Assembly: GCF_024806835.1 (NCBI RefSeq)
Contig: NZ_JANTYU010000001.1
Span: forward strand, 1,364,001 to 1,428,000
Direction: 5' to 3'
DNA: 64,000 nucleotides
Source of the DNA: Xanthomonas sp. 3793
Lineage (GTDB): Bacteria > Pseudomonadota > Gammaproteobacteria > Xanthomonadales > Xanthomonadaceae
Under the pieces are notes generated by a model. That model worked only from the letters and a program-made list of their open reading frames with translations, did no database searches and was not told where the DNA came from. A program made the position numbers and the translations under genes. Shown piece after piece: positions 2,452-22,428 of this stretch. How positions within the stretch are numbered: position 1 is the stretch's first letter; every line of letters starts with the position of its first letter.

Positions 2452-2477
2452 TGGCCGAGGTGCGTTGACTGGTGGGC

Positions 2478-2512: not shown

Positions 2513-2617
2513 GTGGTGCAGGTAGCGTCGCTCGGCCGGCGCTGCCTGTTGCCGTGTTTGCGACGATGCGTGTCTGGGTTTTGGCCGTGTGGCGCATGCA
2601 GGGCGACATCCGTCGCA

Positions 2618-6256: not shown

Positions 6257-6291
6257 CTGCAAGGCGGGGTGACGCAGCGCTGCAAGACACG

Positions 6292-6320
6292 AACCCGCCG
6301 GCAGTGCCTGCGGGTTTTTT
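6292..6320 (+). terminator. Rho-independent terminator of ybaL
   Basis: Arms aacccgc (6292-6298) and gcgggtt (6310-6316), with an additional inner ggca/tgcc pairing, are followed by a run of six T (6315-6320). It lies 36 bp after the ybaL stop codon. Confidence 0.8.
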
Positions 6321-6412
6321 GTTGCCCGCAGGTGGTTTAGGGCGGAACGGCTCGCACCCGTGCATTGATCAAACTGCGACCAGGGCACGGAAAACTGCCC
6401 ACTAAACCCACT

Positions 6413-6427
6413 TGATAATCATTCCCA
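6413..6427. promoter_or_regulatory. Fur box of the siderophore operon
   Basis: TGATAATCATTCCCA matches the 7-1-7 Fur consensus TGATAATnATTATCA at 13 of 15 positions. It lies just upstream of a good Shine-Dalgarno (ggagcagg, 6431-6438) and immediately before the first gene of the xsu/xss operon. Fur-Fe(II) bound here would repress the siderophore genes under iron sufficiency. Confidence 0.75.
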
Positions 6428-6454
6428 TCCGGAGCAGGATGAGCGCCCGTTCCC

Positions 6455-7231
6455 TTGGCGGCCTCATCCATGGCGTTTGCGGTTGGCGTTCTCAATGCGT
6501 TGCCCAGCGTGCAGTTGTGCGAACTGCTGGGCCGCATCGGCTACGGCTTTGTGATGCTCGATCTGGAACACGCGCTGCGCGCGCCGGACGAACTGGAACA
6601 CGCCATCCGCGCCTGCGAGCTGTCCGGCTGCGAGGCCTGGGTGCGGGTGCCGGAGGTGGACGAAAAACTGATCGGCCGGGTGCTGGATGCCGGCGCGCGC
6701 GGCATCGTGGTGCCGCGTGCCGAATCGGCGCAGCAGATCGCGCGTGCCGTCGCCGCCGCGCGCTTCCCACCGCTTGGTCGGCGCGGGATCACCGGTGGCC
6801 GCGTCACCGGCTTCGGCAACCTCGATCTGCCCAGCTACATCGCCCAGGCCAATCGCGATATCCGCATCGTGCCAATGATCGAAAGCGCGGCCGGCGTCGC
6901 TGCGCTACCCGAGATTCTCGCTGAGCCGGGCGTGGCCCTGGTGATGGAAGGCGCGCTGGACCTGGCGCTGGATCTGGGCCTGGGCCCGCAGCCCACCCAT
7001 GCGCAGGTGTGGGAGTCGCTGCTGCAACTGCACGCGCACTGCCGCGCCGCCGATGTGCCGTTCTGCCCCAATCCACGCACCGATGCGCAACGCGCGTACT
7101 GGCTGCAACAACCGGATCTGCGCTGGCTGCTCGCCGGCGAAGACCGCGCCCTGATTCAACGCGCGCTGCGCGGCCATCTGGCCAGCTTCGACGCGCCCGC
7201 CCCCCTACCCGCCTGCAGGAGCACGCCGTAG
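6455..7231 (+). CDS. HpcH/HpaI-family aldolase, SbnG-like (citrate supply?)
   Basis: This is a class II HpcH/HpaI aldolase-fold protein of up to 258 residues. Hallmarks seen are LDLEHA (catalytic His), VRVP (substrate Arg), IVPMIES with a metal-ligand Glu, and MEGALDLALDLG at the position of the usual GPxDLS metal-ligand Asp. Staphylococcal SbnG (about 259 residues) is a citrate synthase of this fold encoded in the staphyloferrin B operon. By analogy this protein could make citrate for the citrate-containing vibrioferrin-type siderophore; that is inference. The start is problematic: the best Shine-Dalgarno and ATG (6439) are out of frame with the body, and in-frame choices are TTG 6455 or ATG 6470 without a good ribosome site. 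A 2-nt loss near 6474 would explain this. The stop abuts the xsuA ATG. Confidence 0.75.
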   Translation: MAASSMAFAVGVLNALPSVQLCELLGRIGYGFVMLDLEHALRAPDELEHAIRACELSGCEAWVRVPEVDEKLIGRVLDAGARGIVVPRAESAQQIARAVAAARFPPLGRRGITGGRVTGFGNLDLPSYIAQANRDIRIVPMIESAAGVAALPEILAEPGVALVMEGALDLALDLGLGPQPTHAQVWESLLQLHAHCRAADVPFCPNPRTDAQRAYWLQQPDLRWLLAGEDRALIQRALRGHLASFDAPAPLPACRSTP

Positions 7232-9373
7232 ATGTCGCCGATCCGTTTGCACACCCTGACCCTCGCCATCGCTGCGGCCTGTTGCGGCCTGTCGCAGGTG
7301 GCGCTTGCCAGCGATCCTCCGGCTGACACTGAGACCACTGTCGCCGAGGGCGATACACCGATCCGTGCACTGGATGCGATCCAGGTGCAGGGCAGCCTGC
7401 TCGGGCGTTCCAAACCCGACGATGTGCAGCGTTATGCCGGTAGCCGCCAGGTGATCGATCGCGAGCAGCTGCGCACTGGCGGCAACCGCTCGCTCGACGA
7501 TGCGCTGCAACGTGTGCCCGGTATCAAGATCTTCGATGAAACCGGCACCGGCGCGTTGCCGCAGCTCATGTTGCGCGGCCTGTACGAAAGCCGCAGCGGC
7601 CGCGTACAGGTGCTGGAAGACGGCATCCCGCTGGCGCTGGCCCCCTATGGGCAGACCAGCCTGTCGTTATTCCCGGTAGGGCTGAACCAGATCGATCGCA
7701 TCGACATCGTGCGCGGCGGCGCGGCCGTGCAATACGGGCCGAACAACGTGGGCGGGGTGATCAATCTGGTCAGCAAGGAGATTCCCAGCGACTGGAGCAC
7801 TACGCTGGCGCACAAGGTCACCGCCGGCGGCCAGGGCCAGTTCCTGCAGGACAGCGCGCTGAGCAGCGGCGGCTATCTCTCCGACAACTTCGGCATGCAG
7901 GTCGATGCCAATCGCACCTGGGGCGAGTACTGGCGCGCGCACAGCGATACCGACATCAGCAATCTGCGCATGCGTGCGGAGTGGTGGCTGGACGACACCA
8001 AGCTGCTCAAGGCCAGCGTGCAGCGGTATCTGGTGGACATGGATCTGGCCGGCGCGCTCAGCCCGGACGATTACCGGCGCGACCCGCGTCAGTCCACGCG
8101 CCCGCTGGATACCTTCAACGGCCGTACCACGCGTGCATCGTTGAGCTATGAGCAGTTGTTTGGAGACTGGGGCCCGCTGAAGGATGTTCGGTTGTCTTGG
8201 ACCAATTTCAGCGCGCGCAGCAGCCGCAACTTCATCGTCGGCATGCGCCAGGCCACCACCGAAACCTGGCGTTCGGATCTGCCGCCGCAATTGCGCCAGA
8301 CCGCACCGCGCGACTTCCGTGTGGCAGGCAGCGAGCCACGCCTGACCTGGAGCATGGGCGATGCCGGCGGGGTGCGTCAGCAGTGGACCGCCGGCGTGCG
8401 CGCGGTGCGCGAGGACATCGATTTTCTGGTGGGCAATCTACGCCTGCGCGATGGCTTGTTCACCAGCGTGCGCGATTGGCAGTTCGAAGACCGCGCACTG
8501 GCCGCCTACGTCAGCAATGCGATCACCTTGCCGGACGAGCGCATCACCATCACCCCCGGGTTGCGCTACGAGCGCCTGGATTCGCGCTATTTCAACCGTA
8601 CCACCGGAATGAGCACGCTCAACCAGACGCGCGATGTGCTGCCCGGCCTGACGGTCGGCTTCCAGGCCAACGCGCAATGGTTCTTCTATGCGGACGGGCA
8701 GCGCTCGATGCGCGCGCCGCAGGTCACCCAGATCATCTTCGGCAACAATCTGGATGCCGAGCTGGCGTGGAATTACGAAGCCGGCACGCGCTACCAACCC
8801 AACGACCGTACCCGCATCCAGGTCGGTGGCTACCTGATCGACTTCGATCAGCAGATCCAGCTGGACAACACCACCCGCGTGTTCCGCAATCTGGGCAAGA
8901 CCCGTCATCAAGGTGGCGAGGTGGAGCTGCAATGGAGCCCGGAACAGCTGCGTGCGCTGACCCTCAACGCGGGCTACGCGTATCTGGATGCCAGCCAGGA
9001 ATCAGGCGCGTTCCGCGGCTTCCGCGTACCGTACACCTCGCGCAATCAGATCACCCTGGGCGGCAACTACGCGCTCGGTCATACCACTGTCGCGCTCTCC
9101 GGCTACTACTTCAGCAAGGCCTTCAGCGATGCGGCCAACACCGTGCAGGAGAACGCCATCGCCTCGGTGGGCCAGTTGCCGGCCTACATGGTCTGGAACA
9201 CCCAGGTGAGCCATACCTTGTTCGAACGCGATGGACAGAAATTCAGCGCATCGCTGGCGATCAACAATCTGTTCGACCGGCAGTACTGGTTCCGCGGCGT
9301 GGACACCAGCCCGTGGGGCCGCCAGGCCGCACCCGGACGGACCTTCACTGCAGGCCTGGAGTACACGTTCTAA
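7232..9373 (+). CDS. xsuA: TonB-dependent ferric-siderophore receptor XsuA
   Basis: This 713-residue outer-membrane receptor presumably imports the ferric form of the siderophore made by the downstream genes. A signal peptide (about residues 1-27, ending VALAS) precedes a plug domain with the blocks LMLRGLYESRSGRVQVLEDG and RIDIVRGGAAVQYGPNNVGG. The barrel ends in FTAGLEYTF. The fold and length resemble PvuA/FecA-like receptors for citrate-type siderophores. The ATG starts directly after the stop codon of the aldolase gene, with a Shine-Dalgarno caggag at 7216-7221 inside that gene, implying translational coupling. The symbol follows published Xanthomonas usage (xsuA beside xssABCDE). Expression should be Fur-controlled from the box at 6413. 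Confidence 0.88.
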   Translation: MSPIRLHTLTLAIAAACCGLSQVALASDPPADTETTVAEGDTPIRALDAIQVQGSLLGRSKPDDVQRYAGSRQVIDREQLRTGGNRSLDDALQRVPGIKIFDETGTGALPQLMLRGLYESRSGRVQVLEDGIPLALAPYGQTSLSLFPVGLNQIDRIDIVRGGAAVQYGPNNVGGVINLVSKEIPSDWSTTLAHKVTAGGQGQFLQDSALSSGGYLSDNFGMQVDANRTWGEYWRAHSDTDISNLRMRAEWWLDDTKLLKASVQRYLVDMDLAGALSPDDYRRDPRQSTRPLDTFNGRTTRASLSYEQLFGDWGPLKDVRLSWTNFSARSSRNFIVGMRQATTETWRSDLPPQLRQTAPRDFRVAGSEPRLTWSMGDAGGVRQQWTAGVRAVREDIDFLVGNLRLRDGLFTSVRDWQFEDRALAAYVSNAITLPDERITITPGLRYERLDSRYFNRTTGMSTLNQTRDVLPGLTVGFQANAQWFFYADGQRSMRAPQVTQIIFGNNLDAELAWNYEAGTRYQPNDRTRIQVGGYLIDFDQQIQLDNTTRVFRNLGKTRHQGGEVELQWSPEQLRALTLNAGYAYLDASQESGAFRGFRVPYTSRNQITLGGNYALGHTTVALSGYYFSKAFSDAANTVQENAIASVGQLPAYMVWNTQVSHTLFERDGQKFSASLAINNLFDRQYWFRGVDTSPWGRQAAPGRTFTAGLEYTF

Positions 9374-9718
9374 GCGCGTTTCGCGTTTGGCGGTAGCAAC
9401 CAGCAATGCAACCAGTGCAATCGGGATTGCTCGCCACCACCACGCGCACCCGATCAAGGCTTGCACCGTTTTCCCAGCGTCATGCTGCACGGAGCAGCAG
9501 CGCCACACGACCGATGGACAGGGGCATCGGTCGCCCACGGCGGCAACGGCGCTCACGCCGTTGCCGGCGCCGGAACCATTGCGTGCATGAGGCACGCATC
9601 AGCGCCGCAGCACGCGGCATTGCGATCGATGCATCGCAGGCCACCCAACGCCGATCGCGGCGCCAGGCAGCCCGTTTCAGTACCGGTTTTCCCACCGCCC
9701 TGTCGAACGAGAGCTGCC
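9374..9718 (+). other. Long intra-operon gap between xsuA and xssA
   Basis: This 345-bp interval contains no gene I can support. It carries strong RNA-hairpin potential: an 11-bp perfect stem at 9541-9566 and a smaller stem, gcgtgc/gcacgc, at 9581-9597. It is the only long gap in an operon whose other junctions abut or overlap. Confidence 0.6.
9541..9566 (+). promoter_or_regulatory. Strong RNA hairpin inside siderophore operon
   Basis: Arms cggcaacggcg (9541-9551) and cgccgttgccg (9556-9566) pair perfectly around a ctca tetraloop. No T-run follows, so it is not a classical terminator. It may be an mRNA-processing or stability element that sets different levels of receptor and biosynthetic mRNA. 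Confidence 0.5.
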
Positions 9719-10945
9719 ATGACTGCGACATCCGCTGCACCGTTGGTGATCCTCACCCATGTCTGCCACCCGGCCATCACCGACGGCTTCCTGCCGGCCG
9801 CGCACGCGCAAGGCGTCCCGGTGTGGCTGCTGACCGACCATCGCCTCGATCACCTTGCCTACTTCCACGACCATCCGGCGCATGCGCCACAGCGGGTGAT
9901 CGAATGCGACGTGTTCAATCCGCTGGGGGTGCTCGATGCGCTGCACGACACCGGCGTGCAACCGCGCGCGGTGTTCAGCAACAGCGATCATCTGCAGACC
10001 AGCACTGCGCTGGTCGCCGCGGGTCTTGGCCTGCCCGGCAAGGATTGGCAGGTCTGCTACGCGGCCAAGAACAAGGCGGCGATGCGTCAGCGCCTGCGCG
10101 CGCGCGCACTGCCATCGCCGTGGTTCTGCACGCTGGCGCCGGGCGCTGCATTGCCAGCAGACATTCCGTGGCCGGTGGTGGCAAAACCGCGCGAGGGCGT
10201 GGCCAGTCTGGACGTGCGCCACTGCGCCGATGACGCGCAGTTGCAGGCCTATCTGCACGATCTATGGCAGCGCAACCCACAGCGCACCGTGCTGCTGGAA
10301 GGCATGTTGCACGGCCCGCTGTTCACCCTGGAGACCCTTGGCGACGGCAACGCGCTGCACGCCATCGGTGGCTTCAAGGTGCGGCTGTCGCCGCCGCCGC
10401 ACTTCGTCGAATGCGAGGCGCAGTGGGATGCGCAGGTGCATACCCCGGTGATTGCACAGGCCCTGCAGCAGCTGCGCGCCTTCGGTGTCGGGTTCGGGCT
10501 GTGCCATAGCGAATTCGTCCTCACCGCCGACGGCCCGGTGCTGGTGGAGATCAACTATCGCAGCATCGGCGACCGCCGCGAATTCCTGCTCGATGGCATG
10601 TTCGGCGGGCAATGGTTTTCCGCCGCGCTGGCGCCGCACCTGGGCCAGCCGTTGCCGCAGCTGCGCAGCGACCGCGCGCATGCGCTGCTGCGCTACTACG
10701 TGGCCGAGCGCGACGGCGAGCTGGTCACCGCCAGCGAAGACCGCCGTCATCACGATGCGCACAGCGATGTGCACTACCGGCGCATGCGTGCACCGGGCGA
10801 GCGCATCCAGCTGAGCCATTCCAACAAGGATTACCTGGGCGTGTTGAGCGCCGTGGCCAGCGATGCGCAGACGCTGCAACAGGCCGTGGTGCATGCCGAA
10901 GCGGGCCTGCACTGGCGCATCGACAGCGCGCAGGTGCGCGCATGA
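9719..10945 (+). CDS. xssA: ATP-grasp ligase of siderophore biosynthesis (PvsA-like)
   Basis: This 408-residue protein has the layout of an ATP-grasp carboxylate-amine ligase: an N-terminal Rossmann-like domain, an ATP-grasp core with VVAKPREGVAS (about residues 158-168) and the metal-binding segment VEINYRS (about residue 277). Its position as first biosynthetic gene matches V. parahaemolyticus PvsA, which couples an amino acid during vibrioferrin assembly. The start ATG at 9719 follows an AG-rich Shine-Dalgarno (aacgagag). The frame is open upstream to 9461, but those residues are low-complexity, basic and unlike the family. The stop overlaps the next gene by ATGA (10942-10945). Confidence 0.85.
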   Translation: MTATSAAPLVILTHVCHPAITDGFLPAAHAQGVPVWLLTDHRLDHLAYFHDHPAHAPQRVIECDVFNPLGVLDALHDTGVQPRAVFSNSDHLQTSTALVAAGLGLPGKDWQVCYAAKNKAAMRQRLRARALPSPWFCTLAPGAALPADIPWPVVAKPREGVASLDVRHCADDAQLQAYLHDLWQRNPQRTVLLEGMLHGPLFTLETLGDGNALHAIGGFKVRLSPPPHFVECEAQWDAQVHTPVIAQALQQLRAFGVGFGLCHSEFVLTADGPVLVEINYRSIGDRREFLLDGMFGGQWFSAALAPHLGQPLPQLRSDRAHALLRYYVAERDGELVTASEDRRHHDAHSDVHYRRMRAPGERIQLSHSNKDYLGVLSAVASDAQTLQQAVVHAEAGLHWRIDSAQVRA

Positions 10946-12750
10946 GCAGCGCCGCCGATCAGCGCTACATCACCACCCGCATCATCGATGCCTGCCTGCG
11001 CGAGGACCTGCGCGCGATCGTCAGCCGTGGCACGCCCGCCACGCCCGCCCCCGGCGTGTTGGCCGCGTGGAGCGACCCCACCCCGGTGGAAGGCTGGTGG
11101 CGCATCGCGCATCTGCCAAACGGAACGCTATGGCTGCCGATCCATCGACACGGCGTGCTGCAGTACATCAGCGCCTGCGGCGATCGCTGGATCGTGCAGA
11201 CCGCCGACGCTGCGCAGGTCGAACACGGCGCGCATGCGTGGCTGCACCGCATGAGTGCCGAGTTGGATGCGCAAACCCGGCAACTGCATCGCGCCTATGC
11301 CGACGAAGCCGACTGCGCCGCCGCGCACCGCGGTCTTGCGCAACAGGCGTATGCCGCGCAGGCACCGGCCTTGGCGCATGCGCTACAGCACGAAGAGGCG
11401 GCCGAGCGCGCATACCGCTGCGACCAGCTGGCCAGCTACCGCGATCATCCGTTCTACCCCACTGCACGCGCAAAGGCAGGGCTGGAAGCAGACGAACTGC
11501 GCCACTATGCACCGGAATTTGCGCCCACCTTCGCGCTGCGTTGGCTGGCGATTCCGCGCACACTGGCCAGTTGCACCAGCGCGCCGCCGGACGCGTTATG
11601 GCCGGACTTGGCCACCCTGGGGCTGCCGCCCGCGCTTGCCACGACGCACATCGCCTGGCCGGTGCATCCGCTGGTCTGGGAACGCCTGGAGCAACCAGGC
11701 TTTGCGCTTCCACCCGGCACGCTGCGCGCACCGCAGGCCTGGCTGGAAGTCCGCCCCACCTTGTCGGTGCGCACGCTGGTGCCGCTGCGGCATCCGCACC
11801 TGCATCTCAAGCTGCCGATCCCGATGCGCACGCTGGGCGCATTGAACCTGCGCCTGATCAAACCCTCCACGTTGTACGACGGGCACTGGCTGGAGCGCGC
11901 GCTACGCCGTATCGACGCGCACGATGGCGCATTGCAGGGACGTTGCGTGTTCGTGGACGAGTCGCATGGCGGGCATGTCGGCGACACCCGGCACCTGGCC
12001 TATCTGGTGCGACGCTATCCCCCGCTGGATGACACCACGCTGGTCCCGGTGGCCGCGCTGTGCGCGCCGATGCCCGATGGCCGGCCGATGGCGCTGCATC
12101 TGGCCGAACGCTTCGCGCACGGCGACGTGCAGGCCTGGTGGCGCGAGTACACCGAGTTGCTGCTCGCGGTGCATCTGCGGCTGTGGCTGCGCTACGGCAT
12201 TGCGCTGGAAGCCAATCAACAGAACAGCGTGCTGGTCTATGCGCACGGTCAACGCACGCGTCTGTTGATGAAGGACAACGACGCCGCGCGCATCGCCATG
12301 CCGCAATTGCGTGCGCAGCTGCCGGATATCGACACGCTGGGTGCGCTGCAGGACCCACGGATCGCAGTGGACGATGCACACGCGCTGGCGCAGATGTTCT
12401 GCACCATCGTGCTGCAGCTGGACCTGCAGGCGGTCCTGGACGGCCTGGCCGACTGGCAACCAGCCTTGCGCGCGCCGCTGGCGGCGCAACTGCAGGACCA
12501 GGTCGCGCCGACGCTGGCAGCGCTGGATGCCGATGGCATCGATACCGCGCCCGCGCGGCGCCTGCTGGCCGCGCCGCGGTTGCCGGTGAAATACCTGCTC
12601 AGCGCCGGCAGCCTGCTCAGCAAGCAGCTCACCGGCGCCTCCGACATCAACAAATTCTACGGCGACAGTGCGCCCAATCCGTTCGGCACGGCGTTTGTCC
12701 AGGCACAGACACAACCGCAGCCGCGTCGCCACGCCGGTGGTCAGCGATGA
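10942..12750 (+). CDS. xssB: NIS siderophore synthetase, IucA/IucC family (PvsB-like)
   Basis: This 602-residue cytoplasmic enzyme belongs to the NRPS-independent siderophore (NIS) synthetases, which adenylate a citrate carboxylate and condense it with an amine or alcohol. Visible family blocks are YRDHPFYPTARAKAG (the HPxxPxxKxR-like phosphate-binding loop, about residues 168-182), the central LKLPIPMRTLGALN segment and the EANQQNSVLVY motif (about residue 423), in which the usual ExHxQN reads EANQQN. The C-terminal region corresponds to the FhuF-like portion. Gene order equates it to PvsB of the vibrioferrin pathway. It overlaps its neighbours by 4 nt at both ends, so the block is translated as a coupled unit. 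Confidence 0.88.
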   Translation: MSSAADQRYITTRIIDACLREDLRAIVSRGTPATPAPGVLAAWSDPTPVEGWWRIAHLPNGTLWLPIHRHGVLQYISACGDRWIVQTADAAQVEHGAHAWLHRMSAELDAQTRQLHRAYADEADCAAAHRGLAQQAYAAQAPALAHALQHEEAAERAYRCDQLASYRDHPFYPTARAKAGLEADELRHYAPEFAPTFALRWLAIPRTLASCTSAPPDALWPDLATLGLPPALATTHIAWPVHPLVWERLEQPGFALPPGTLRAPQAWLEVRPTLSVRTLVPLRHPHLHLKLPIPMRTLGALNLRLIKPSTLYDGHWLERALRRIDAHDGALQGRCVFVDESHGGHVGDTRHLAYLVRRYPPLDDTTLVPVAALCAPMPDGRPMALHLAERFAHGDVQAWWREYTELLLAVHLRLWLRYGIALEANQQNSVLVYAHGQRTRLLMKDNDAARIAMPQLRAQLPDIDTLGALQDPRIAVDDAHALAQMFCTIVLQLDLQAVLDGLADWQPALRAPLAAQLQDQVAPTLAALDADGIDTAPARRLLAAPRLPVKYLLSAGSLLSKQLTGASDINKFYGDSAPNPFGTAFVQAQTQPQPRRHAGGQR

Positions 12751-13931
12751 AGCGCGTCCTCGGCCCGGTGCTGGCCGCCCACTATCTGGCGGCCTTCACC
12801 GCCCTGGGCATGCCGCTGTTCTTGCCGCAGGTCTTGGCGGAGCTGGCGCCGAGCGCAGCAATCGGCTGGAGCGGCGTGCTCTACGTCTTGCCCACCTTGT
12901 GCACTGCGTTGACGGCAAGCAGCTGGGGCAGGCTGGCCGATCGCTATGGACGCAAACGCTCGCTGCTGCGCGCGCAACTGGGGCTGGCGCTGGGCTTTGC
13001 GATTGCCGGCTTTGCACCGTCGCTGAGCTGGCTGGTGCTCGGCCTGATCGTGCAAGGTACCTGCGGCGGCTCGCTGGCGGCGGCCAATGCGTATCTGGCC
13101 AGCCAACCGCAGGCCGGCCCGCTGGCGCGCGCGCTGGACTGGACGCAGTATTCGGCGCGGCTGGCGATGGTCAGCGCACCGGCGTTGCTGGGGCTGGCGC
13201 TTACCCTGGGCCCGGCGCAATCGCTTTACCGCGCGCTCGCACTCCTGCCATTACTGGCCTTCGCGTTGACGTGGCGGTTGCCGGCGGATCAGCCCATCAG
13301 ACGTCCAGGCCCGAAAGCGCAATCGTCGTCGGGCACCGAACCTGCAACACGTCCACCGGCCTCCACCGCATCGTTGTGGCCGGCCTTGTTGATCGCGCAG
13401 TTTCTGTTCTGCTTTGCGATGGTGGTGACGTTTCCGTATTTCATTCCCTACGCACTCGAACGCGGTGCCGGGCACGACGCGCTGGCCGGCCTGCTCTACA
13501 GCCTGCCGCATCTGGTCTACCTGGTGGTATTGCCGTGGTGGCGGCGCGGCGCTGGCGAGGCGTGGCTGATCCCGGGGTTGCTGATGTTTGCGCTGGCCTG
13601 CCTGTGGCAGGCGCTGTTGCACGACGCCATCGGGCTGGCGGTGGCGCGGCTGTTGTTCGGCGTCGGCATGTTGTTCGGCCTGCGCGGGCTCAATCGCAGC
13701 CTGGCCCTGGCCGCCAGCGGCCACGATGCCGGCCGCCTGTTCGGCCGTTTCGATGCCTGCGGCAAGTGGGCCGGCGTGGCCGCTGGCGCCGCCGCCGGTG
13801 CGCTGGCCCAGGCGGCCGGCCCCGCACTCCCTTTCCTGGCCGCCGCCGTCGCTGCGGCTGGCGCTGCGCTCACCGTTGCGGTGCGCTTTCCCTCGAGGAG
13901 AACTGCCGATGTCGCTGCACACGATGCATGA
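12747..13931 (+). CDS. xssC: MFS siderophore exporter (PvsC-like)
   Basis: This 394-residue inner-membrane protein of the major facilitator superfamily has about twelve hydrophobic segments. The loop 2-3 signature GRLADRYGRKRSLL lies near residues 63-76. By operon position it corresponds to PvsC, the vibrioferrin exporter, so it probably moves the finished siderophore from cytoplasm to periplasm. It starts with an ATGA overlap on xssB and its own end overlaps the start of xssD by 23 nt. Specificity is inferred from context only. Confidence 0.85.
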   Translation: MKRVLGPVLAAHYLAAFTALGMPLFLPQVLAELAPSAAIGWSGVLYVLPTLCTALTASSWGRLADRYGRKRSLLRAQLGLALGFAIAGFAPSLSWLVLGLIVQGTCGGSLAAANAYLASQPQAGPLARALDWTQYSARLAMVSAPALLGLALTLGPAQSLYRALALLPLLAFALTWRLPADQPIRRPGPKAQSSSGTEPATRPPASTASLWPALLIAQFLFCFAMVVTFPYFIPYALERGAGHDALAGLLYSLPHLVYLVVLPWWRRGAGEAWLIPGLLMFALACLWQALLHDAIGLAVARLLFGVGMLFGLRGLNRSLALAASGHDAGRLFGRFDACGKWAGVAAGAAAGALAQAAGPALPFLAAAVAAAGAALTVAVRFPSRRTADVAAHDA

Positions 13932-15678
13932 CCCCTGGTACGACAGCATGGCCGACGCGCAGGCCTGCAGTTGCTGGTTGAACTGCTACCTGCGCGAGTT
14001 CGCCATCCCGCAACGCGCAGTCGATTTCGATTACCGCGGGCTGGATCGCCCCGGGCCGCGCGTGGCCGAGCAGCGTTGGCTGCGCATCGATCTCGGCGAT
14101 AGCGGCGCGATCTGCGTGCGCATCGCCTACGCAGACCGCTTGGGACGTTGCCGCTTCGCCTCCACGCCGTTTCTCAAAGGCGCCGGGCAAGCGTGGCAGG
14201 CGCTCGATGCGCATGCGCTGGCGCGCTGCCTGTTGCAGTCGCTGGGCAGCACGCAGGCGGTCAACCCGGAGTTGCTTACGCAAAGCGCCAACAGCGTGGC
14301 AATCACCGCAGCGATCCTGCGCAAGGCGCAGCGCGGCGCACCCACCGGCGATGCGATGATCGATGCCGAGCAATCGATGCTGTGGGGTCATGCCCTGCAC
14401 CCCACACCGAAGAGCCGCGAAGGCATCGCGCTCGAGCACGTACTCGCCTGCGCACCGGAAGCGCGTGCGGCGTTCCAGTTGTTCTGGTTCCGCATCGACC
14501 CACGGCTGCTGCGCGTGCAAGGCAAGGACGTGCGCGCCAGCCTGAGGCAGCTGTCCGGCAGCGACGATCTCTACCCCTGCCATCCGTGGGAGGCGCAACG
14601 GCTGCTCGACGATCCGCTGCTGCGCACCTTGCAGGCACGCGGTTGGATCACGCCGGTCGGCCTGCGCGGCGATGCACTGCGGCCCACCTCATCGGTGCGG
14701 ACGCTGTACCACCCGCAGCTGGATTACTTTCTCAAATGTTCCGTGCATGTGCGGCTGACCAATTGCGTCCGCAAGAATGCCTGGTACGAACTGGAAAGTG
14801 CGGTGGCGCTCACCAACCTGCTGGCGCCGAGCTGGCAGGCACTGGCAGCGCAGGTCCCTGGCTTCGACGTGATGCTGGAGCCGGCGGCCACCTCGCTGGA
14901 CGTCGCGCAGGTCGACCGCGCCCTGCACGATGCCGATCCGCAGGCAGCACGCGCATTGTCCGAAAGCTTCGGCATCCTGTATCGCACGACCATTCCTGCC
15001 ACGCAACGCGCACGTTGGCAGCCACAGGTGGCCGCCGCCCTGTTTACCTGCGATGCACAGGGCAACAGCGTCTGCGCCCAGCGATTGCAGAGGCTGGGCA
15101 GCATGCAGCTGGACCGCCACACGACCACGTTACGGTGGTTCCGCGCCTATGCGGGCCTGTTGCTGGATGGGGTGTGGAGCGCGCTGTTCCAGCATGGCAT
15201 CGCGCTGGAGCCGCATCTGCAGAACACCGTGATCGGCTTTGCCGACGGCTGGCCGACTCGCGTATGGATCCGCGATCTGGAAGGCACCAAATTGCTGGCC
15301 CACCACTGGCCGGAAGCTCGCCTGCGCGGCGTGGGCGAACGTGCGCGACAATCGCTGTACTACACGCCGGAGCAGGGCTGGAACCGCGTCGCCTACTGCG
15401 CCCTGGTGAACAACCTGGCCGAAGCCATCTTCCATCTGACCGAAGGCGACGGCGTGCTGGAAATGCGGCTGTGGCAGTGCGTGGGCGAGCTCGCCGCCGG
15501 TTGGCAACAACGCCACAGCGCACAACCGGCGCTGCAGGGCCTGATCGACGGCGCCCCGCTGCCGGGCAAGAACAATCTCGGTACGCGCCTGCTGCAACGG
15601 GCCGATCGTCAATCCGACTACACGCCATTGCCCAACCCGATTGCGCACATCACCACGGCACGACAGGTGGCCGCATGA
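13909..15678 (+). CDS. xssD: NIS siderophore synthetase, IucA/IucC family (PvsD-like)
   Basis: This is the second NIS synthetase of the operon, 589 residues. Family blocks visible are the HPTPKSREG phosphate-binding loop (about residues 164-172), PCHPWEAQRL (about 223-232), TSSVRTLYHP (about 261-270), LKCSVHVRLTNCVRKN (about 278-293) and the EPHLQNTVIGF motif (about 434-444), which has the canonical ExHxQN. The short N-terminal part contains a cysteine-rich ACSCWLNC stretch. A Shine-Dalgarno cgaggag sits 8 nt before the ATG. The enzyme corresponds to PvsD, which joins a second building block to citrate. It ends in an ATGA overlap with xssE. Confidence 0.9.
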   Translation: MSLHTMHDPWYDSMADAQACSCWLNCYLREFAIPQRAVDFDYRGLDRPGPRVAEQRWLRIDLGDSGAICVRIAYADRLGRCRFASTPFLKGAGQAWQALDAHALARCLLQSLGSTQAVNPELLTQSANSVAITAAILRKAQRGAPTGDAMIDAEQSMLWGHALHPTPKSREGIALEHVLACAPEARAAFQLFWFRIDPRLLRVQGKDVRASLRQLSGSDDLYPCHPWEAQRLLDDPLLRTLQARGWITPVGLRGDALRPTSSVRTLYHPQLDYFLKCSVHVRLTNCVRKNAWYELESAVALTNLLAPSWQALAAQVPGFDVMLEPAATSLDVAQVDRALHDADPQAARALSESFGILYRTTIPATQRARWQPQVAAALFTCDAQGNSVCAQRLQRLGSMQLDRHTTTLRWFRAYAGLLLDGVWSALFQHGIALEPHLQNTVIGFADGWPTRVWIRDLEGTKLLAHHWPEARLRGVGERARQSLYYTPEQGWNRVAYCALVNNLAEAIFHLTEGDGVLEMRLWQCVGELAAGWQQRHSAQPALQGLIDGAPLPGKNNLGTRLLQRADRQSDYTPLPNPIAHITTARQVAA

Positions 15679-16871
15679 GCCTGCGTATCGACACCGCCGC
15701 GGTCATCCACGCATTGCCGCAGCTGCGTGCGGGCAGCGATGGCCCGCTCTGTGCGTATCTCTACGATCTGGAGGCACTGCACGCGCATGCGGCATGGATG
15801 CGCGCGCAGCTGCCGGCGCAGTGCGAGCTGTTCTATGCGGCCAAAGCCAATGCGGAACCGCAGATCCTGCAGACGCTTGCGCCGCACGTGGATGGATTTG
15901 AAGCCGCCTCCGGCGGCGAACTGGCCTGGCTGCATGCGCAGCAACCGCAGGCAGCGCTGCTGTTCGGCGGGCCGGGAAAACTCGACAGCGAGCTGGCCCA
16001 GGCCGCCGCGCTGCCCGACTGCACCGTGCACGTGGAAAGCATCGGCGAGCTGCAACGGCTGGCCACCATTGCGGCACACGCCGGCCGCCGCGTCCCGGTG
16101 TTCTTGCGCATGAACATCGACGTGCCCGGCGCACAGAGCACGCGATTGATGATGGGCGGGCAGCCCTCGCCGTTCGGTCTGGACCCGCAGGACCTGGACG
16201 CTGCCATGCAGCTGCTGCGTGCCAGCCCGTCGCTGCGGCTGGAGGGATTTCATTTCCATCTGATGTCGCATCAACGCGATGCCGGTGCGCAGCTGCATCT
16301 GGTTGCCGCGTACCTGCGCATCGTCCAGCAATGGCGGCAGACCTATGCGCTTGGGCCGCTGTGGGTCAATGCGGGCGGTGGCTTCGGCGTGGACTATCTG
16401 GCGCCGCAGTCCTCGTTCGACTGGGCCGGCTTCTGCGCCGGGTTGCCAGCGCTGCTGCGCGAGCACGGCAGTGCGTTGCGCCTGCGGCTGGAGCCCGGCC
16501 GCTATGTCAGCGCCAGCTGCGGCTGGTACCTGATGGAGGTGCTGGATATCAAGCGCAGCCACGGCCAGTGGTTCGCGATCGCACGCGGCGGCACCCACCA
16601 TTTCCGCACCCCGGCCGCGCAGGCCCACGACCACCCCTTCCGCGTGCTGCGCGGCACCTGCGCTCCGGTGATCACCGACACGCAGGTCACCCTGGTCGGC
16701 CAGCTGTGTACGCCCAAGGACGTGCTGTCACGCCAGCAACCGGTGGCCGCGCTCGCACCCGGCGATTGTCTGGCCTTCCCGCTGGCCGGCGCCTATGCGT
16801 GGAATATTTCGCACCAGCAGTTCCTGATGCACCCGCCGCCGCAGCGGGTGTTTCTAAAGGAGGGGCATTGA
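15675..16871 (+). CDS. xssE: PLP-dependent decarboxylase of siderophore biosynthesis (PvsE-like)
   Basis: This 398-residue fold-type III PLP enzyme belongs to the alanine racemase/diaminopimelate decarboxylase class. The PLP lysine is K57 in FYAAKANAEP; other blocks are GGGFGVDYL and LEPGRYVSASCGWYL (pyrophosphate-binding and dimer-interface regions). In the vibrioferrin pathway the homologue PvsE decarboxylates a serine-derived unit to an ethanolamine moiety. This is the last operon gene, with ATGA overlap on xssD. Its extreme C-terminus (after PPPQRVFL) differs from that of the second, truncated copy at 19995-20574, and the sequence just beyond the stop drops in G+C, so this end is one edge of a rearrangement. 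Confidence 0.88.
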   Translation: MSLRIDTAAVIHALPQLRAGSDGPLCAYLYDLEALHAHAAWMRAQLPAQCELFYAAKANAEPQILQTLAPHVDGFEAASGGELAWLHAQQPQAALLFGGPGKLDSELAQAAALPDCTVHVESIGELQRLATIAAHAGRRVPVFLRMNIDVPGAQSTRLMMGGQPSPFGLDPQDLDAAMQLLRASPSLRLEGFHFHLMSHQRDAGAQLHLVAAYLRIVQQWRQTYALGPLWVNAGGGFGVDYLAPQSSFDWAGFCAGLPALLREHGSALRLRLEPGRYVSASCGWYLMEVLDIKRSHGQWFAIARGGTHHFRTPAAQAHDHPFRVLRGTCAPVITDTQVTLVGQLCTPKDVLSRQQPVAALAPGDCLAFPLAGAYAWNISHQQFLMHPPPQRVFLKEGH

Positions 16872-17254
16872 CTTACCGATTGCGGACGAACAAAGCTTAA
16901 GCCTGGGTCAGCAGGCTCACATGCAGATGTGCTGTTGCCGTAAATTCCTGAGGTGACTTGAATTAGCTGTGGAGAAATTTCGTAGAAGTTAGCCAAGCGG
17001 ATCTCTGCCCATTGGCAATTCTCCTAGGGAAGGTCTGAATAACCCACCAAACCTCTCAAATTCCAGACTTTGCATGTCAGTGACGAGCAACATGTCGCGT
17101 TTGGGGCGATTTCTGCCACTTTCTAGCGGCTTTAGCTGCCGCCAGGCAGCATTACCCCGGGCCGGCAGCAGTTGCCGGCGCACCATCCATCAGTTGGCCT
17201 CTGGCTCGGCTCTTGCCTGTGCCCTCAGACCCCGGCCAAGGATGAGATCGCGGC

Positions 17255-17494
17255 ATGACTGAGTTAGACCCGCACCATCGTATAGGTCTGACCGGCCCTC
17301 GGGCCGGTTCTATTTCCTCGGTGATCGCCTGATCACTCCCCGAAGGTTGCGAGCTGCTCCCGGAAGATTTGGCCTGGCTGTCGCTCACCGCCTGCCAAGC
17401 GCAGGAATGGCGCCGGATGCCGGAAGCTGCACGCTCGGAACCGTTGCTCAACCGCGCCGCGCTTGAACTCGGCACTGAACTTCCTATGCTTTGA
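17255..17494 (+). pseudogene. Short decayed coding fragment
   Basis: One frame reads MTELDPHHRIGLTG, hits an in-frame TGA at 17330-17332, then continues for about 53 codons with protein-like composition (EDLAWLSLTACQAQEWRRM) to TGA at 17492-17494. The parent family is not recognised. The call rests only on frame and composition and is weak. Confidence 0.25.
17291..17308 (+). terminator. GC-rich hairpin, possible terminator
   Basis: Arms accggccc (17291-17298) and gggccggt (17301-17308) are complementary and are followed by the T-rich tctattt. This may be a terminator for read-through from the siderophore operon. It overlaps the decayed fragment. Confidence 0.4.
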
Positions 17495-17669
17495 CACGAA
17501 TACTCATCATGGCCTGAATCGACCTTCTTGTCAGTTTCCGTGAAAACGGGGTAGAACCCCACTGCAATCCTGGAAGGCTAAGCTATGGCCCGTAGCCGCT
17601 TGCATAGGGTCACGACAAGAATTGCACGAAACCGTATGTCAAGGACCAACGAATGGAGAACGATTTCAG

Positions 17670-18236
17670 ATGAAGAATTGGCTGATCGGCTTAGTAGTCA
17701 CCATGGCATGGACTAGCCCCTGCGTTGCTCAAATCGCCCCTGAGTTGCTCGGAGGCGCGGATCCGGATAAGCCGATGTTCAGCGAATCCTTCTACAAAGG
17801 GGTTGAGGGTAATTGGGTGCTGGTACGCGAACCCGTCAACACCGGTTACCACTGCTCGGTTAATTTCATCACGCCAGATTCCACCTTGTCGCTTCGCGGT
17901 CCCGCCGACGCCGGGATGGCGAAAAAGGGTCATGGCAGTCTTTGGCTCATCAGCGAGGCAATCCCCCCGGTGACAAAGGCCGAGATCGCTCCGATCACGT
18001 TGTTATCTACCAACCACCCTACGCAGAATGTTCAGGCCGCCCATGTGAGCATGCCTGGCCAGAGCAATGGGGCGTTACTGCTGACCATCGACGTGCAGAA
18101 ATCGGTGCAGGAAAAGCCGGACAGTAATGAGCTCGCCATCCAGCTTCAGGGGAAAGAGGTATTCCGGTCAAAAGTTGTCCAGTTGCAACTGGCGTATCGC
18201 CAGCTTTCGGCTTGCATGAGCGCGGCTCGAAAATAG
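17670..18236 (+). CDS. Small secreted protein of unknown function
   Basis: This 188-residue protein is predicted to be exported. It has a Sec signal peptide (MKNWLIGLVV, cleavage near CVAQ at about residue 21) and a mature domain with no transmembrane segment. Features seen are GNWVLVREPVNTGYHCSVNF (about 49-68) and a C-terminal RQLSACMSAARK; the two cysteines could form a disulfide. I do not recognise a family. I chose ATG 17670 because the signal peptide starts there and a ggag Shine-Dalgarno lies about 11 nt upstream. G+C is lower than the flanking operons. It converges with the next gene, with 9 bp between stop codons, and the pair sits between two partial copies of xssE, suggesting a transferred or allelic cassette. 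Confidence 0.7.
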   Translation: MKNWLIGLVVTMAWTSPCVAQIAPELLGGADPDKPMFSESFYKGVEGNWVLVREPVNTGYHCSVNFITPDSTLSLRGPADAGMAKKGHGSLWLISEAIPPVTKAEIAPITLLSTNHPTQNVQAAHVSMPGQSNGALLLTIDVQKSVQEKPDSNELAIQLQGKEVFRSKVVQLQLAYRQLSACMSAARK

Positions 18237-18245
18237 ACCATGGTT

Positions 18246-19421
18246 TCAGCCGTTTGGCACGTTCAAGATGTCGGTGCAGGCGCGACGCATCCCTCTTGTG
18301 TCGCCACTTGACTCAACGAAGATATTCACATCGGCAACCCTCAGCATCCCGGCGCTGTCCGGGATCAGCACATAGCGGACGTTGCAACTTTTATAACCGC
18401 CGCCATCGTAAGTCGCGCCGGTCACGAGATTCTGCCACATGACGCGATTGTCAAAAGCCTGCCCATAAGAGAGCGTCCGCGCGATCCCGGCCTGACGGAC
18501 AGCCGGGTTGCCGTTCGCGGCGACGACCTCTTGCTCAGTCTTACCCACCCACACCTGGATCAGGAGCGATTCACTACGCGTTAAACGCCTTTTTTCACGG
18601 TATTCAGCGGCGATCTGAATAAAATCCTGATCGGCCTTCATCGCCGCCAGATTGCCCTGCACCGTCCCCTGCGCTTCGGTTACTTGTTGCTGCATTTGGG
18701 CCAATTTTGCCGTGAGCGCTGCCGATTCTGCTGGCGTCAGCTTGCGGCCGCCATTGATCGCGGGCTTCGGCACGTCAGACCACAGCGTTTCCCAGGTAAA
18801 ATCGGCAAGCGAACTCATCGACAGTCCGGCGGGGACCAGTTCCAGTCCATTCAAGCCACTGGCTGCCAGTTTCGCTCGCAATGTATCGGACTTAACCACA
18901 CGATCGACCGCCGCAGCTTGTTTGGCATCGCCAATGCTGGCACTGTTGCAGGCTACATTCCATGCCTGTCGCATCGTGTAGCTGGTCGTGCTTTGCCAAT
19001 CGGTGGGCTGGAGATCAATGATCGCCGGATCCTGTTTCATGGTCTTTGCGCCGCTGGCCACCCGGAATTCTACGGAATCCGGCGTGTCCAATATGCCGGT
19101 TGAATCAGCCTTGTGCTTTGGTGCGCCACGGCCGCGCCGAATCGACTTGGGGCATTTGAACTGAAGTTGATATTCCAACCATAGGGGTTGGTCGACCGCT
19201 TCATAGACCATCGTCAAATCAATCTGAATGACACGGTTTGAGTCAGGATTTGCGAGATCATCATTGATCGGTGTGTAGTCCATAATTGCGTCACTGGCGT
19301 AGACGTTGACACGCTTTCCGGCTGCACCTTGCATATCGATCAGAAACTTGCTGGCCCCGACTTGCGTTGCGATGGCCATAATGCCCGCGCCGATTACGAG
19401 TTTTGTGATTTGTCGTGTCAT
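18246..19421 (-). CDS. Secreted protein with C-terminal BamE/OmlA-like segment, unknown function
   Basis: This 391-residue exported protein has a signal peptide (MTRQITKLVIGAG, cleavage near QVGAS at about residue 23). The N-terminal half carries paired cysteines (FKCPKS, WNVACNS). A polar helical stretch, probably coiled-coil (about residues 225-275, rich in Q, A and E), follows. The C-terminal part contains WVGKTEQEVVAANGNPAV, then an aromatic strand and a hydrophobic strand segment, reminiscent of the small BamE/SmpA/OmlA fold. A good Shine-Dalgarno (aagga) precedes ATG 19421; an upstream in-frame ATG lacks a signal peptide. It converges with the preceding secreted-protein gene and shares its lower G+C. 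Function unknown; the BamE-like reading is tentative. Confidence 0.7.
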   Translation of the reverse strand: MTRQITKLVIGAGIMAIATQVGASKFLIDMQGAAGKRVNVYASDAIMDYTPINDDLANPDSNRVIQIDLTMVYEAVDQPLWLEYQLQFKCPKSIRRGRGAPKHKADSTGILDTPDSVEFRVASGAKTMKQDPAIIDLQPTDWQSTTSYTMRQAWNVACNSASIGDAKQAAAVDRVVKSDTLRAKLAASGLNGLELVPAGLSMSSLADFTWETLWSDVPKPAINGGRKLTPAESAALTAKLAQMQQQVTEAQGTVQGNLAAMKADQDFIQIAAEYREKRRLTRSESLLIQVWVGKTEQEVVAANGNPAVRQAGIARTLSYGQAFDNRVMWQNLVTGATYDGGGYKSCNVRYVLIPDSAGMLRVADVNIFVESSGDTRGMRRACTDILNVPNG

Positions 19422-19813
19422 GAGCGCTTCCTTACCCGTTATGTCAACTCGCGCTCTACCGCGCACGTATGTTACTGATATCAAGACGTTCTCAAAATTT
19501 GAGTACGCAATTTTGAAGCTTCTTCCGGAACCAGCCGCCTCCAGGTCGATTGTGCTGCAGCGACATCGGAAATGCTAAGCCTTGTTGCGGAACGCCCTCG
19601 TTAGGCTTGTGGACCAAGCGCGGAACGTCTCTAACTGCCGGGAAGCCACGAGCGACACCGGTGTTGCACCTGCGCCGGAGAACGCAGCAGGCAACGCACG
19701 CTGGCGGATGCCGATGGTCGCAGCGCCCACGGCCGCTGCGCAGGCGCAGACGATGCGCGGGCCGGGGTCCATCCGTCGGGAGGACGATTGCGTCAGCTGC
19801 AGCGCCTGCCTGT
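19422..19813. other. Intergenic, upstream of the secreted-protein gene
   Basis: The right part of this 392-bp stretch returns to high G+C. It must carry the minus-strand promoter of the gene ending at 18246 and the sequence downstream of the cobS remnant. I see no gene in it. Long open frames crossing it are chimeras produced by the adjoining remnants. Confidence 0.5.
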
Positions 19814-19993
19814 TCAACCCGACCACAGCGCCAGAGCCACCAGCAGCGCAGCTTCGGTCAGTTCCACTAGTGCGCCGCAGGTATCGCCCGTCATGCCGCC
19901 CAGCCGCTGCAGGCAGGCGCGGCGCCAGAGTGCGAACACCAGTGCGGAGATGCCGACGCACAACGCCGCGGTGGCCAGCCCGGCAACGATGCA
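19814..19993 (-). pseudogene. 3' remnant of a second, diverged cobS
   Basis: The minus strand encodes about 59 residues and a stop (19814-19816) that match the C-terminus of the intact CobS (21694-22428), including ALWRRACLQRLGGM and TGDTCGALVELTEAALL. Identity is high near the stop and falls upstream, so this is a diverged copy rather than a recent duplicate. It is cut abruptly at about 19993, where sequence switches to an xssE fragment on the opposite strand. With only the last quarter of the gene and no start it cannot be functional. Confidence 0.85.
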
Positions 19994-19994
19994 C

Positions 19995-20574
19995 GCTGCA
20001 TCTGGTTGCCGCGTACCTGCGCATCGTCCAGCAATGGCGGCAGACCTATGCGCTTGGGCCGCTGCGGGTAAACGCGGGCGGCGGCTTCGGCGTGGATTAT
20101 CTGGCGCCGCAGTCCTCGTTCGACTGGGCCGCCTTCTGCGCCGGGCTGCCCGCGCTGCTGCGCGAGCACGGCAGTGCGTTACGCCTGCGCCTGGAGCCGG
20201 GCCGCTACGTCAGCGCCAGCTGCGGCTGGTACCTGATGGAGGTGCTGGATATCAAGCGCAGCCACGGCCAGTGGTTCGCGATCGCACGCGGCGGCACCCA
20301 CCATTTCCGCACCCCGGCCGCGCAGGCCCACGACCACCCCTTCCGCGTGCTGCGCGGCACCCGCGCTCCGGTGATCAGCGACACGCCGGTGACGCTGGTC
20401 GGCCAGTTATGCACCCCCAAGGACGTGCTGGCGCGCAACCAGCCCGTCGCCGCACTGGCAGCAGGCGACTGCATCGCCTTCCCGCTGGCCGGTGCGTACG
20501 CATGGAATATTTCGCACCAGCAGTTTTTGATGCATCCGCCGCCGCAGAAGATGTTTTTGCCGGTGATCGACTGA
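19995..20574 (+). pseudogene. 3' remnant of a second, diverged xssE
   Basis: About 193 codons match the C-terminal half of XssE (from LHLVAAYLRIVQQWRQ to the stop). Roughly 8% of bases differ from 16292-16871 by eye, mostly at third codon positions, but a stretch of about 150 bp in the middle is identical, suggesting gene conversion. The C-terminus ends QKMFLPVID instead of QRVFLKEGH. The N-terminal half with the PLP lysine is missing, so it is not functional. An open frame runs into it from 19582, but that frame reads antisense through the cobS remnant and is a chimera. Confidence 0.88.
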
Positions 20575-20692
20575 AGACGACCTCACGAAGGCATCGATGT
20601 TGCGCTTGCAGCTGTTCCACGCGCAGGCAACAGCTTGCACAACCGCTCCGCACGCTCGCAGATCAGCCGCGCGCGGCGCGGCATGCGTACCC

Positions 20693-21595
20693 TCAACCAC
20701 GCGTTTCGATCGCCACTACCGGCACCCGGATATCGGCGCGCAGGATCGCCTCGGGCGTTTCTTCCGGGTCGTCCAGATACAGGTAATGCAGCGGTGCATC
20801 GCGCAGCACATAACCGCTGTCGGGCAGCCAGGCGGCCAGCAGCTGGTCCAGCGCATCTTCCAGCCCGGCATACGAACCGACATGGCGCAGGACGGCGTGC
20901 GGCCCGCCATCCAGACGACGCAGCTGCAAGGGCGCTGCGGGCGTGACCGCCACGTCGAAGCCCACGCCGCATTCGAACAGATGCGCGTGCGCGGGAACGT
21001 CACGGTGATCGCTCAGCGGCAATCCCACCAGGGACTGCAGGCTGTCGACGATGCCGGTGTGCGCCGCCCAGGCTACGATCCGGCCGAAGCCGCGATCCAG
21101 ATCGTCGAACGCGCCGCGCTTGTGCAGTACCACCAGTTCGAACGGCTCCAGCGTCTGCACGCTGACCTGCAGCGGCGCTGACGGACGCTGTGCCCCGGCT
21201 GCCGGCGCAGATAACTGCTGCAACTTGCTGGCCCGCAATGCCGGTGTCGAGCGCAAGACGGTGGGACTGGCCTGCAGCGCGCTGCGGCAGGCACGCGCCA
21301 GCGCCTGTGGCGTCTGGTAACCGACCGCGAGTGCAACCGCAGTCACCGACGCCTCTGCGCTGCCCAACAAATGCAGGGCCTGGCTCAACCGCAAGCGCGC
21401 CACGGTCTGGCCCACGGTCTCACCGGTCAGGGCGCGATAGACCCGATGAAAGTGATACGGCGATTGATGCGCGATGGCGGCCAACTCGGCCAGATCCGGC
21501 AAGGCAGCGCCGTTGCGAATGCTGGCCTGCAGATGCGCAATGACGCGCTCCACGCCCCGTTGCCAACTGGTGACTGCTGAGTCTGCTGCATGCAT
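20693..21595 (-). CDS. AraC-family regulator with GyrI-like ligand domain
   Basis: This 300-residue transcription factor has an N-terminal AraC/XylS double helix-turn-helix (about residues 15-115; HQSPYHFHRVYRALTGETVG is the second recognition region) and a C-terminal GyrI/BmrR-like small-molecule-binding domain (about residues 140-300). This is the SoxS/Rob-like order, DNA-binding domain first. A Shine-Dalgarno agggag lies 9 nt before the ATG. It is 98 bp downstream of cobS on the same strand, so it could be the last gene of the cobalamin transcript or have its own promoter. The effector is unknown; a role in cobalamin control is not shown by the sequence. Confidence 0.88.
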   Translation of the reverse strand: MHAADSAVTSWQRGVERVIAHLQASIRNGAALPDLAELAAIAHQSPYHFHRVYRALTGETVGQTVARLRLSQALHLLGSAEASVTAVALAVGYQTPQALARACRSALQASPTVLRSTPALRASKLQQLSAPAAGAQRPSAPLQVSVQTLEPFELVVLHKRGAFDDLDRGFGRIVAWAAHTGIVDSLQSLVGLPLSDHRDVPAHAHLFECGVGFDVAVTPAAPLQLRRLDGGPHAVLRHVGSYAGLEDALDQLLAAWLPDSGYVLRDAPLHYLYLDDPEETPEAILRADIRVPVVAIETRG

Positions 21596-21693
21596 GGTCT
21601 TGGCTCCCTGGTGACGGCATCAGCATCGCCTGCATCGGCTGCCGGCGCGGTCCCGATCTTGCGCAATGGTGCATCCATTGCACCGCGTGCGAC

Positions 21694-22428
21694 TCAGCCC
21701 GGCCACACCGCCAACGTCACCAGCAGCGCAGCTTCGGTCAGTTCCACCAGTGCGCCGCAGGTATCGCCCGTCATGCCGTCCAGGCGCTGCATGCAGGCGC
21801 GGCGCCACAGAACGAACACCACTGCGGCACTGCCGAGGCAGGCAGCCGCGATCGTGGTGCCGGCAGCCATGCAGACCACGACCGCCAGTAACAACGCCAG
21901 CCACAAGCCCCCACGCGGTGCGGCGACCAGCGCGCTGCCGATGCCGGCGGGGCGCACATATGGCGTGGTCAAAAAGGCCGCCACCACCGCGGCGCGTGCC
22001 AGCAAGGGCGCCAGCCACAACGCACCCGCTGCATGCGGCAGCAGCGTGGCCAATGCAGCGCATTTGAGCAGCAACACCAGCACCAGCGCAGTCACCGCCA
22101 TCGGGCCGCTGCTGGGGTCTTGCATGATCGCCAGCGTGCGTGCGCGGTCGCCCATGCCGCCGACCCAGGCGTCGGTCGTGTCGGCCAGCCCATCCAGGTG
22201 CAGGGCGCCGGTCAGCCAGGTCCATGCGCCCAGCAGCACTGCCGCGCCAAGCAGTGGCGCCACATCGCGCAGGCACCATGCCAGGCCACACAGTAGCGCA
22301 CCGAGCAGCAGGCCGACCGCCGGATACCACGGCAGCGAACGCGCCTGCGCGCCCGGCCGGGCGAACACCGCGCCGGGCACCGGAATGCGGGTCAGGAAGC
22401 CGATCGCCGCGAGCAGCCCATCGATCAT
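21694..22428 (-). CDS. cobS: Adenosylcobinamide-GDP ribazoletransferase
   Basis: CobS (cobalamin synthase) joins adenosylcobinamide-GDP to alpha-ribazole (phosphate), the last assembly step of the nucleotide loop. This 244-residue integral membrane protein has about six hydrophobic segments. Family signatures are the N-terminal FLTRIPVP (about residues 11-18), the HLDGLADTTDAWVGG block (about 78-92) and TGDTCGALVELTEAALL near the C-terminus. Length is usual. It overlaps cobC by 4 nt. A diverged remnant of its 3' end lies at 19814-19993. Confidence 0.95.
   Translation of the reverse strand: MIDGLLAAIGFLTRIPVPGAVFARPGAQARSLPWYPAVGLLLGALLCGLAWCLRDVAPLLGAAVLLGAWTWLTGALHLDGLADTTDAWVGGMGDRARTLAIMQDPSSGPMAVTALVLVLLLKCAALATLLPHAAGALWLAPLLARAAVVAAFLTTPYVRPAGIGSALVAAPRGGLWLALLLAVVVCMAAGTTIAAACLGSAAVVFVLWRRACMQRLDGMTGDTCGALVELTEAALLVTLAVWPG

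Follow-up and report, generated by a model that had tools for sequence, protein, structure and literature searches.

How can a chromosome come to hold, between two intact genes, the detached end of a second copy of each? We address this question for the interval between xssE and cobS in Xanthomonas sp. 3793, using a window of 64,000 nt (NZ_JANTYU010000001.1, 1,364,001-1,428,000; all coordinates below are window positions). The genes follow one another in the order xssE, gene A, gene B, cobS', xssE', araC and cobS, where genes A and B are predicted to encode secreted proteins and the primed names denote remnants of a second cobS and a second xssE. An earlier note on this DNA had set out the same order and coordinates, and both read in the sequence as it gave them; the names xssE and xss operon are those used in that note. 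The intact genes contain the expected domains, namely Orn/DAP/Arg decarboxylase in xssE, GyrI-like and AraC helix-turn-helix domains in araC, and CobS in cobS. We favor the explanation that the interval sets the resident araC version and a pair-bearing version of the locus side by side, likely through one homologous crossover in xssE with an end-joined fragment of the pair version, and we hold it with about even confidence.

The two remnants are 3' ends of second gene copies, as the earlier note proposed, with 83% and 92% identity to the intact genes. The first, cobS' (19814..19993, minus strand), comprises the last 180 bases of a cobS and matches the intact gene at 83% over its whole length (19814-19993 versus 21694-21873). 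The second, xssE' (19995..20574, plus strand), comprises the last 580 bases of an xssE, with an open frame and no start, and its first 300 bases match intact xssE at 96% (19995-20294 versus 16292-16591). Both remnants keep the orientation of their intact copies. A search of the genome with 19700-20700 returned two further partners, xssE (562 bases, 92%, E 6e-234) and cobS (180 bases, 83%, E 5e-47), and no additional copy of either remnant was reported, in both cases among the 40 of 273 candidates that were scored. These matches are far beyond chance. The claim that the remnants have diverged from the intact genes stands for cobS' and for the tail of xssE', but the divergence of the two xssE copies is uneven: 0 differences in 70 bases, 12 in 144 and 0 in 153, the first and third blocks being identical, followed by 44 in the 213 bases of the tail.

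Comparison with G006, a strain marked as the same species and the sole other strain of it in the comparison, delimits what was added. In G006, xssE is followed directly by araC and cobS. Its sequence aligns to window positions 1-16853 at 98.1% and to 19995-63758 at 98.6%, with small indels and an irregular alignment over the last ~240 window bases. The two alignments overlap across the duplicated xssE tail, and the repeats meet at the same base. The window is exactly 3,703 bases longer than G006 here, and no resident DNA is missing when G006 is taken as the empty site. The same figure, 3,703 bases, is the start-to-start spacing of the two xssE tails (16292 and 19995), which flank the insert as same-orientation copies.

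If two versions of the locus exist, relatives should carry one or the other. A search with the xssE protein yielded 47 loci in named genomes; we kept the 32 from Xanthomonas, excluded 15 from other genera, and added G006 and genome G034, giving a tally of 34. Several of these loci stem from one species complex (for example, X. arboricola), and some stop early on their contig (for example, X. populi and X. cucurbitae), so that the tally covers sequence up to the contig end. The pair without araC was found in four loci (X. prunicola, X. phaseoli, X. codiaei and, with a piece of gene B only, X. cissicola), and araC, whole or in pieces, without the pair in 23. These two classes are what the earlier note had predicted. 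Neither was present in six loci, in four of which (NCPPB 1128, F10, albilineans and GPE 39) cobS was not found downstream, and both occurred together in one, Xanthomonas sp. Leaf148. The single shared arrangement that the note named as the outcome that would speak against it was not seen in this tally. A second search, of 35 genomes of the genus including the window's own, found gene B in six and gene A in five.

Three of these loci deserve description in their own right. In Leaf148, the pair and araC are separated by an insertion sequence (L035 14056-15242) that has matching inverted ends and encodes a transposase of 329 aa; together with ~160 bases of other sequence, it occupies the place of the window's cobS' and xssE', and this strain may have had the same composite or an independent one. 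X. dyei has a 307-aa reading frame between xssE and araC (L004 11431-12354), a third kind of cargo at this site. In G034, the flank of a pair-type cobS (window 19653-19999, 90%) stands directly after araC and is followed by cobS (L082 6950-7341), an arrangement that either arose by recombination or represents an older, pair-less state; its border between araC and flank probably marks the end of the imported pair block.

The ancestry of each segment was then read from distances and trees. Most of intact xssE (15675..16658, plus strand) is of the resident species, with G006 as its nearest relative up to about 16500: across 15675-16291 it differs from G006 at 15 of 617 positions, and in the tree of 16292-16505 it pairs with G006 (support 98/93), with xssE' just outside (99/94). 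Over 16506-16658, the two window copies are identical and nearest to X. floridensis (4 differences in 153), followed by codiaei (8) and by cucurbitae and G006 (10 each). Beyond this point the copies part. Across the 213 positions of 16659..16871, intact xssE shows 6 differences from X. prunicola and 44 from its own partner xssE', and xssE' shows 4 from G006. The tree of this stretch joins xssE' to G006 (100/97) and intact xssE to prunicola (88/70) and then codiaei (96/93). Forcing the two window tails together was rejected (log-likelihood, lnL, -74.6; p value of the approximately unbiased test, p-AU, 1e-46). The differences of cobS' in 180 bases number 15 to phaseoli, 16 to cissicola, 18 to G034, 20 to prunicola, 22 to codiaei and 31 to the window's own cobS; grouping it with the resident cobS was rejected (p-AU 0.002), and a clade with three pair types was not (p-AU 0.22).

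On these groupings, the import starts with the final ~213 bases of intact xssE and continues through the pair and the flank downstream of it to cobS'. By the same groupings xssE' is of the resident species at both ends, and the middle block, 16506-16658, is not G006-like in either copy. The earlier note had taken both remnants as foreign. This holds for cobS', which is nearest to pair-type genes although the tree places it only loosely among the pair types, G034 and melonis, but a foreign origin of xssE' was rejected, since both its ends group with the same-species G006; the foreign part of xssE is the tail of the intact copy. Between the two foreign ends lie an imported intergenic stretch (16872..17669), gene A (17670..18236, plus strand, 188 aa), gene B (18249..19421, minus strand, 391 aa from its ATG, within a reading frame open to 19484), and an imported downstream flank of a pair-type cobS (19653..19813), the flank that also follows araC in the pair-less G034. 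To the right of xssE' are the resident versions of the AraC/GyrI regulator (20693..21595, minus strand) and of intact cobS (21694..22428, minus strand).

The same trees bear on the plainest alternative, a local duplication followed by divergence, or else an insertion-sequence or integrase event. Simple local duplication was rejected by the tests that paired the window's own copies, for the xssE tails and for cobS' alike; neither is closest to its own intact copy, as the earlier note had asked of a foreign version, and only xssE 16292-16658 is close in both. Pieces resembling insertion-sequence ends do lie within the imported stretch, as such an event might leave. However, cobS passes directly into xssE at the joint, where no insertion-sequence or integron element was seen, and for neither 16872-17669 nor 19485-19813 was another copy reported in the window's genome. 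We consider this explanation scarcely credible.

What, then, joined the two versions? Relative to G006, the xssE copies exchange roles within 16497-16658: the resident sequence is the intact copy to the left and xssE' to the right. Because such a reciprocal switch of two copies is the mark of a single crossover, we place one in xssE, and the single-crossover integration suggested in the earlier note fits this pattern. The other border is the joint of cobS' and xssE' (19994..19997). Sequence derived from cobS extends to 19994 (to 19996 by comparison with X. cissicola), and sequence derived from xssE starts at 19995. At position 19995, the window and xssE have G, and prunicola, phaseoli, codiaei and G034 have A. 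The overlap is therefore 0 bases against these four and 2 against cissicola, reaching 5 only if an unsampled donor read GCTGC. Judged against these five sampled donors, the joint, known from the assembly sequence alone, has little or no microhomology (0-2 bases).

Under the explanation we favor, the incoming DNA would have been a 3.7 kb piece that began at base 618 of xssE, spanned the pair and finished with the last 180 bases of cobS, its two ends joined to each other across little or no microhomology. A single crossover in the xssE tail that it shared with the resident gene would then have inserted it, duplicating the tail and losing nothing. The 5' part of the fragment's xssE (16292-16505) belongs to the window's species, which makes another strain of that species, or a very close relative, with the pair version already in place the probable donor. 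Should the two xssE tails recombine, the predicted outcome is the loss of 3,703 bases and a return to an araC-only locus.

Several observations weigh against this explanation. At 16362-16370 (three sites) and at 16505, xssE' agrees with G006 and the intact copy does not; at 16310, 16321 and 16406 and at ten sites within 16547-16625, both copies agree and differ from G006, the latter block being common to both and nearest to X. floridensis. In the tail, the intact copy agrees with G006 and xssE' alone differs at 16758, 16770 and 16790, and a difference at 16752 is common to both. Ordinary strain variation, a conversion tract or mutation can explain these sites, but some such addition is needed. 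Neither a circular nor a tandem intermediate was seen in a comparison with one other strain of the species, and G006 could be a revertant rather than the ancestral state. No sampled donor matches the whole insert: the tail is nearest to prunicola, gene A to Leaf148 and cobS' to phaseoli. The cobS' tree does not settle its place among the pair types, G034 and melonis, and the pair-less G034 is as near as the pair types. Finally, a same-species strain with the simple pair version is postulated.

The part of xssE left of the tail also bears on a direct, one-pass insertion by template switching, in which resident xssE was copied into donor DNA and the copying later returned to its own xssE upstream, so that left of the switch both copies would be the same resident allele. 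The copies do belong with G006 in 16292-16505 (99/94), and their blocks of 70 and 153 bases are identical. Yet the 12 differences left of 16659 are confined to 144 of 367 positions (span test, 0.00015), and this crowding speaks against a plain resident duplication there. Template switching would need a later conversion of the gene remnant to account for them, and we give it a slim chance.

The earlier note went further than a single crossover. It proposed that integration of a larger piece produced a complete tandem of both versions, from which a later deletion removed DNA from inside cobS' to inside xssE'. This course yields the same gene order and the same reciprocal switch, and as a source of the present product it is possible. 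It takes one event more than needed, and no tandem was found in the 34 loci or among the matches listed in the 35 genomes of the genus. The separate deletion is unnecessary because a fragment with pre-joined ends gives the same product in one step; we therefore judge the full sequence of tandem and deletion decidedly unlikely.

The chief rival to the end-joined fragment is homology-facilitated illegitimate recombination. Here the starting point would be a pair-only strain, into which an araC-bearing fragment of a sister strain came, anchored by homology on the cobS side. The fragment would have been attached to the resident cobS' by a homology-free joint, and cobS' would be the scar that remained. 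This would produce the same ancestry map without additional conversion, the two xssE copies being simply two alleles of one species. An insertion coupled to a deletion is the usual outcome of the process as the E. coli report describes it (PMC3240628), and a similar build-up of leftover genes has been proposed for the type VI secretion system (T6SS) arrays of V. cholerae (PMC5361080). The rival nevertheless requires two imports, and it does not predict the reciprocal switch relative to G006. The coupled deletion of resident DNA is not seen relative to G006 either, although a pair-only starting strain would change this. The usual microhomology of 3-10 bases is likewise not seen at the joint when it is compared with the five sampled donors (0-2 bases). 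In the E. coli conjugation assay, this class made up only 4 of the 60 clones, with deletions, and three of those four also lacked homology at the joint (PMC3240628). We regard this rival as unlikely, though a serious contender.

To return to the cargo, genes A and B are convergent. Gene A has a hydrophobic N-terminus, read by eye, and the prediction that gene B is secreted was likewise made by eye. Neither gene matched a Pfam or NCBIfam family at E <= 0.001 or a PADLOC family at E <= 1. In scans at E <= 5, gene B and its relatives gave weak, scattered Pfam matches (best 0.028), and gene A gave none. Structure predictions were of low confidence and unusable, with a mean predicted local distance difference test score (pLDDT) of 36.7 for A (one sequence) and 35.1 for B (five). 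Within the pair, DNA identity of the window to the other pair-bearing Xanthomonas is 92-97% (for cissicola, over 481 bases of gene B only), whereas the flanks of the same species (xssE 5' and cobS 5') are 77-93% identical to the window, which indicates that the pair version travels between species.

The pair also occurs outside Xanthomonas. In G335, of another genus, it stands in different surroundings at 90-91% identity to the window's (L127 5913-7866), pointing to wide horizontal spread. Among the 345 genomes sampled, two further genera of the family contain convergent pairs that are distant from this one; both genes are found together in three other genera, and only one of them in further genomes. 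The neighborhoods outside Xanthomonas, whose genes were not searched against families, gave nothing usable. Within Xanthomonas, gene A is split into two overlapping pieces in X. phaseoli (L009 11968-12533) and X. cissicola keeps part of gene B and no gene A (L011 11878-12421), so that decay of the pair seems to be under way in some species.

Pieces of sequence around the pair recur elsewhere. Within the imported intergenic stretch, 17024-17189 and 17445-17565 have many copies in several other Xanthomonas genomes, and on the far side of the pair 19581-19652 recurs at one place in G022. All three, which lie on either side of the pair, are likely ends of insertion sequences. Positions 17163-17197 match the transposase end of the Leaf148 insertion sequence at 86% over 35 bases and, given this match and the multi-copy pieces, the pair probably first arrived next to insertion sequences. 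Elsewhere in the window, identity to G006 falls to ~85% (200-base bins) at 12600-13000, against 92-99% around it, and this tract of the siderophore operon was probably imported separately; a similar drop, to 90.8%, is seen at 33001-33500.

Exchange of alleles between bacteria is usually read as replacement; here, genes were most likely gained by it, and the joint has no mobile element. One can read directly in sequence the insert-free strain of the same species, relatives bearing the donor version, the zone of the crossover, and the joint. Other loci of this origin should be recognizable by a gene with a foreign tail, followed by foreign cargo, a foreign stub of the next gene and then a resident tail, and they are predicted to be reversible. 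As a tentative generalization, short-lived circles with joined ends might carry ordinary chromosomal genes from one bacterial species to another: a single crossover in a flanking gene would bring them in, a rival set would be added to the resident one, and the new set could be dropped again through the duplicated end.

How does the locus compare with known systems? It is a well-resolved new case of an already known kind of event, insertion-duplication. Three papers mention both Xanthomonas and homology-facilitated illegitimate recombination, none of them in its title or abstract, and no paper in the literature search combined Xanthomonas, cobS, recombination and siderophore, which is not proof of absence in print. 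The closest parallel comes from the E. coli conjugation assay, where 56 of 60 clones of one selected class gave a polymerase chain reaction (PCR) product of partial duplication; 14 were sequenced, with duplications of 109-950 bases, which its authors explain by trimmed, re-circularized molecules entering by single crossover (PMC3240628). By analogy, the structure described here, with a duplicate of 580 bases, is of that duplication kind. As in the single-crossover (Campbell-type) insertion-duplication described there, direct partial copies of the target flank the insert, nothing is lost, the mosaic is reciprocal and the duplicate measures a few hundred bases; unlike it, the present case concerns a natural chromosome and two versions of one locus, with no plasmid or marker, and its circle is a reconstruction (PMC3240628).

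With homology-facilitated illegitimate recombination, as the same source presents it, the locus shares one homologous side, one non-homologous joint and trapped foreign DNA, but that process usually deletes resident DNA and uses 3-10 bases of microhomology, whereas here nothing is missing compared with G006 and 0-2 bases are seen against the sampled donors (PMC3240628). The leftover immunity arrays of the V. cholerae T6SS resemble it in that a module is newly gained and parts of the earlier arrangement persist; there, however, the accumulating orphan immunity genes are whole and the effector has been displaced, whereas here both cargos are whole and only gene ends are left (PMC5361080). Lastly, the merodiploids formed by transformation in S. 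pneumoniae also arise when an import duplicates instead of replacing. Those mostly involve repeats and span about 100-900 kb, although one 3.3 kb duplication without flanking repeats is also reported there, in contrast to the 580-base gene end around a non-homologous joint found in Xanthomonas sp. 3793 (PMC3784515).

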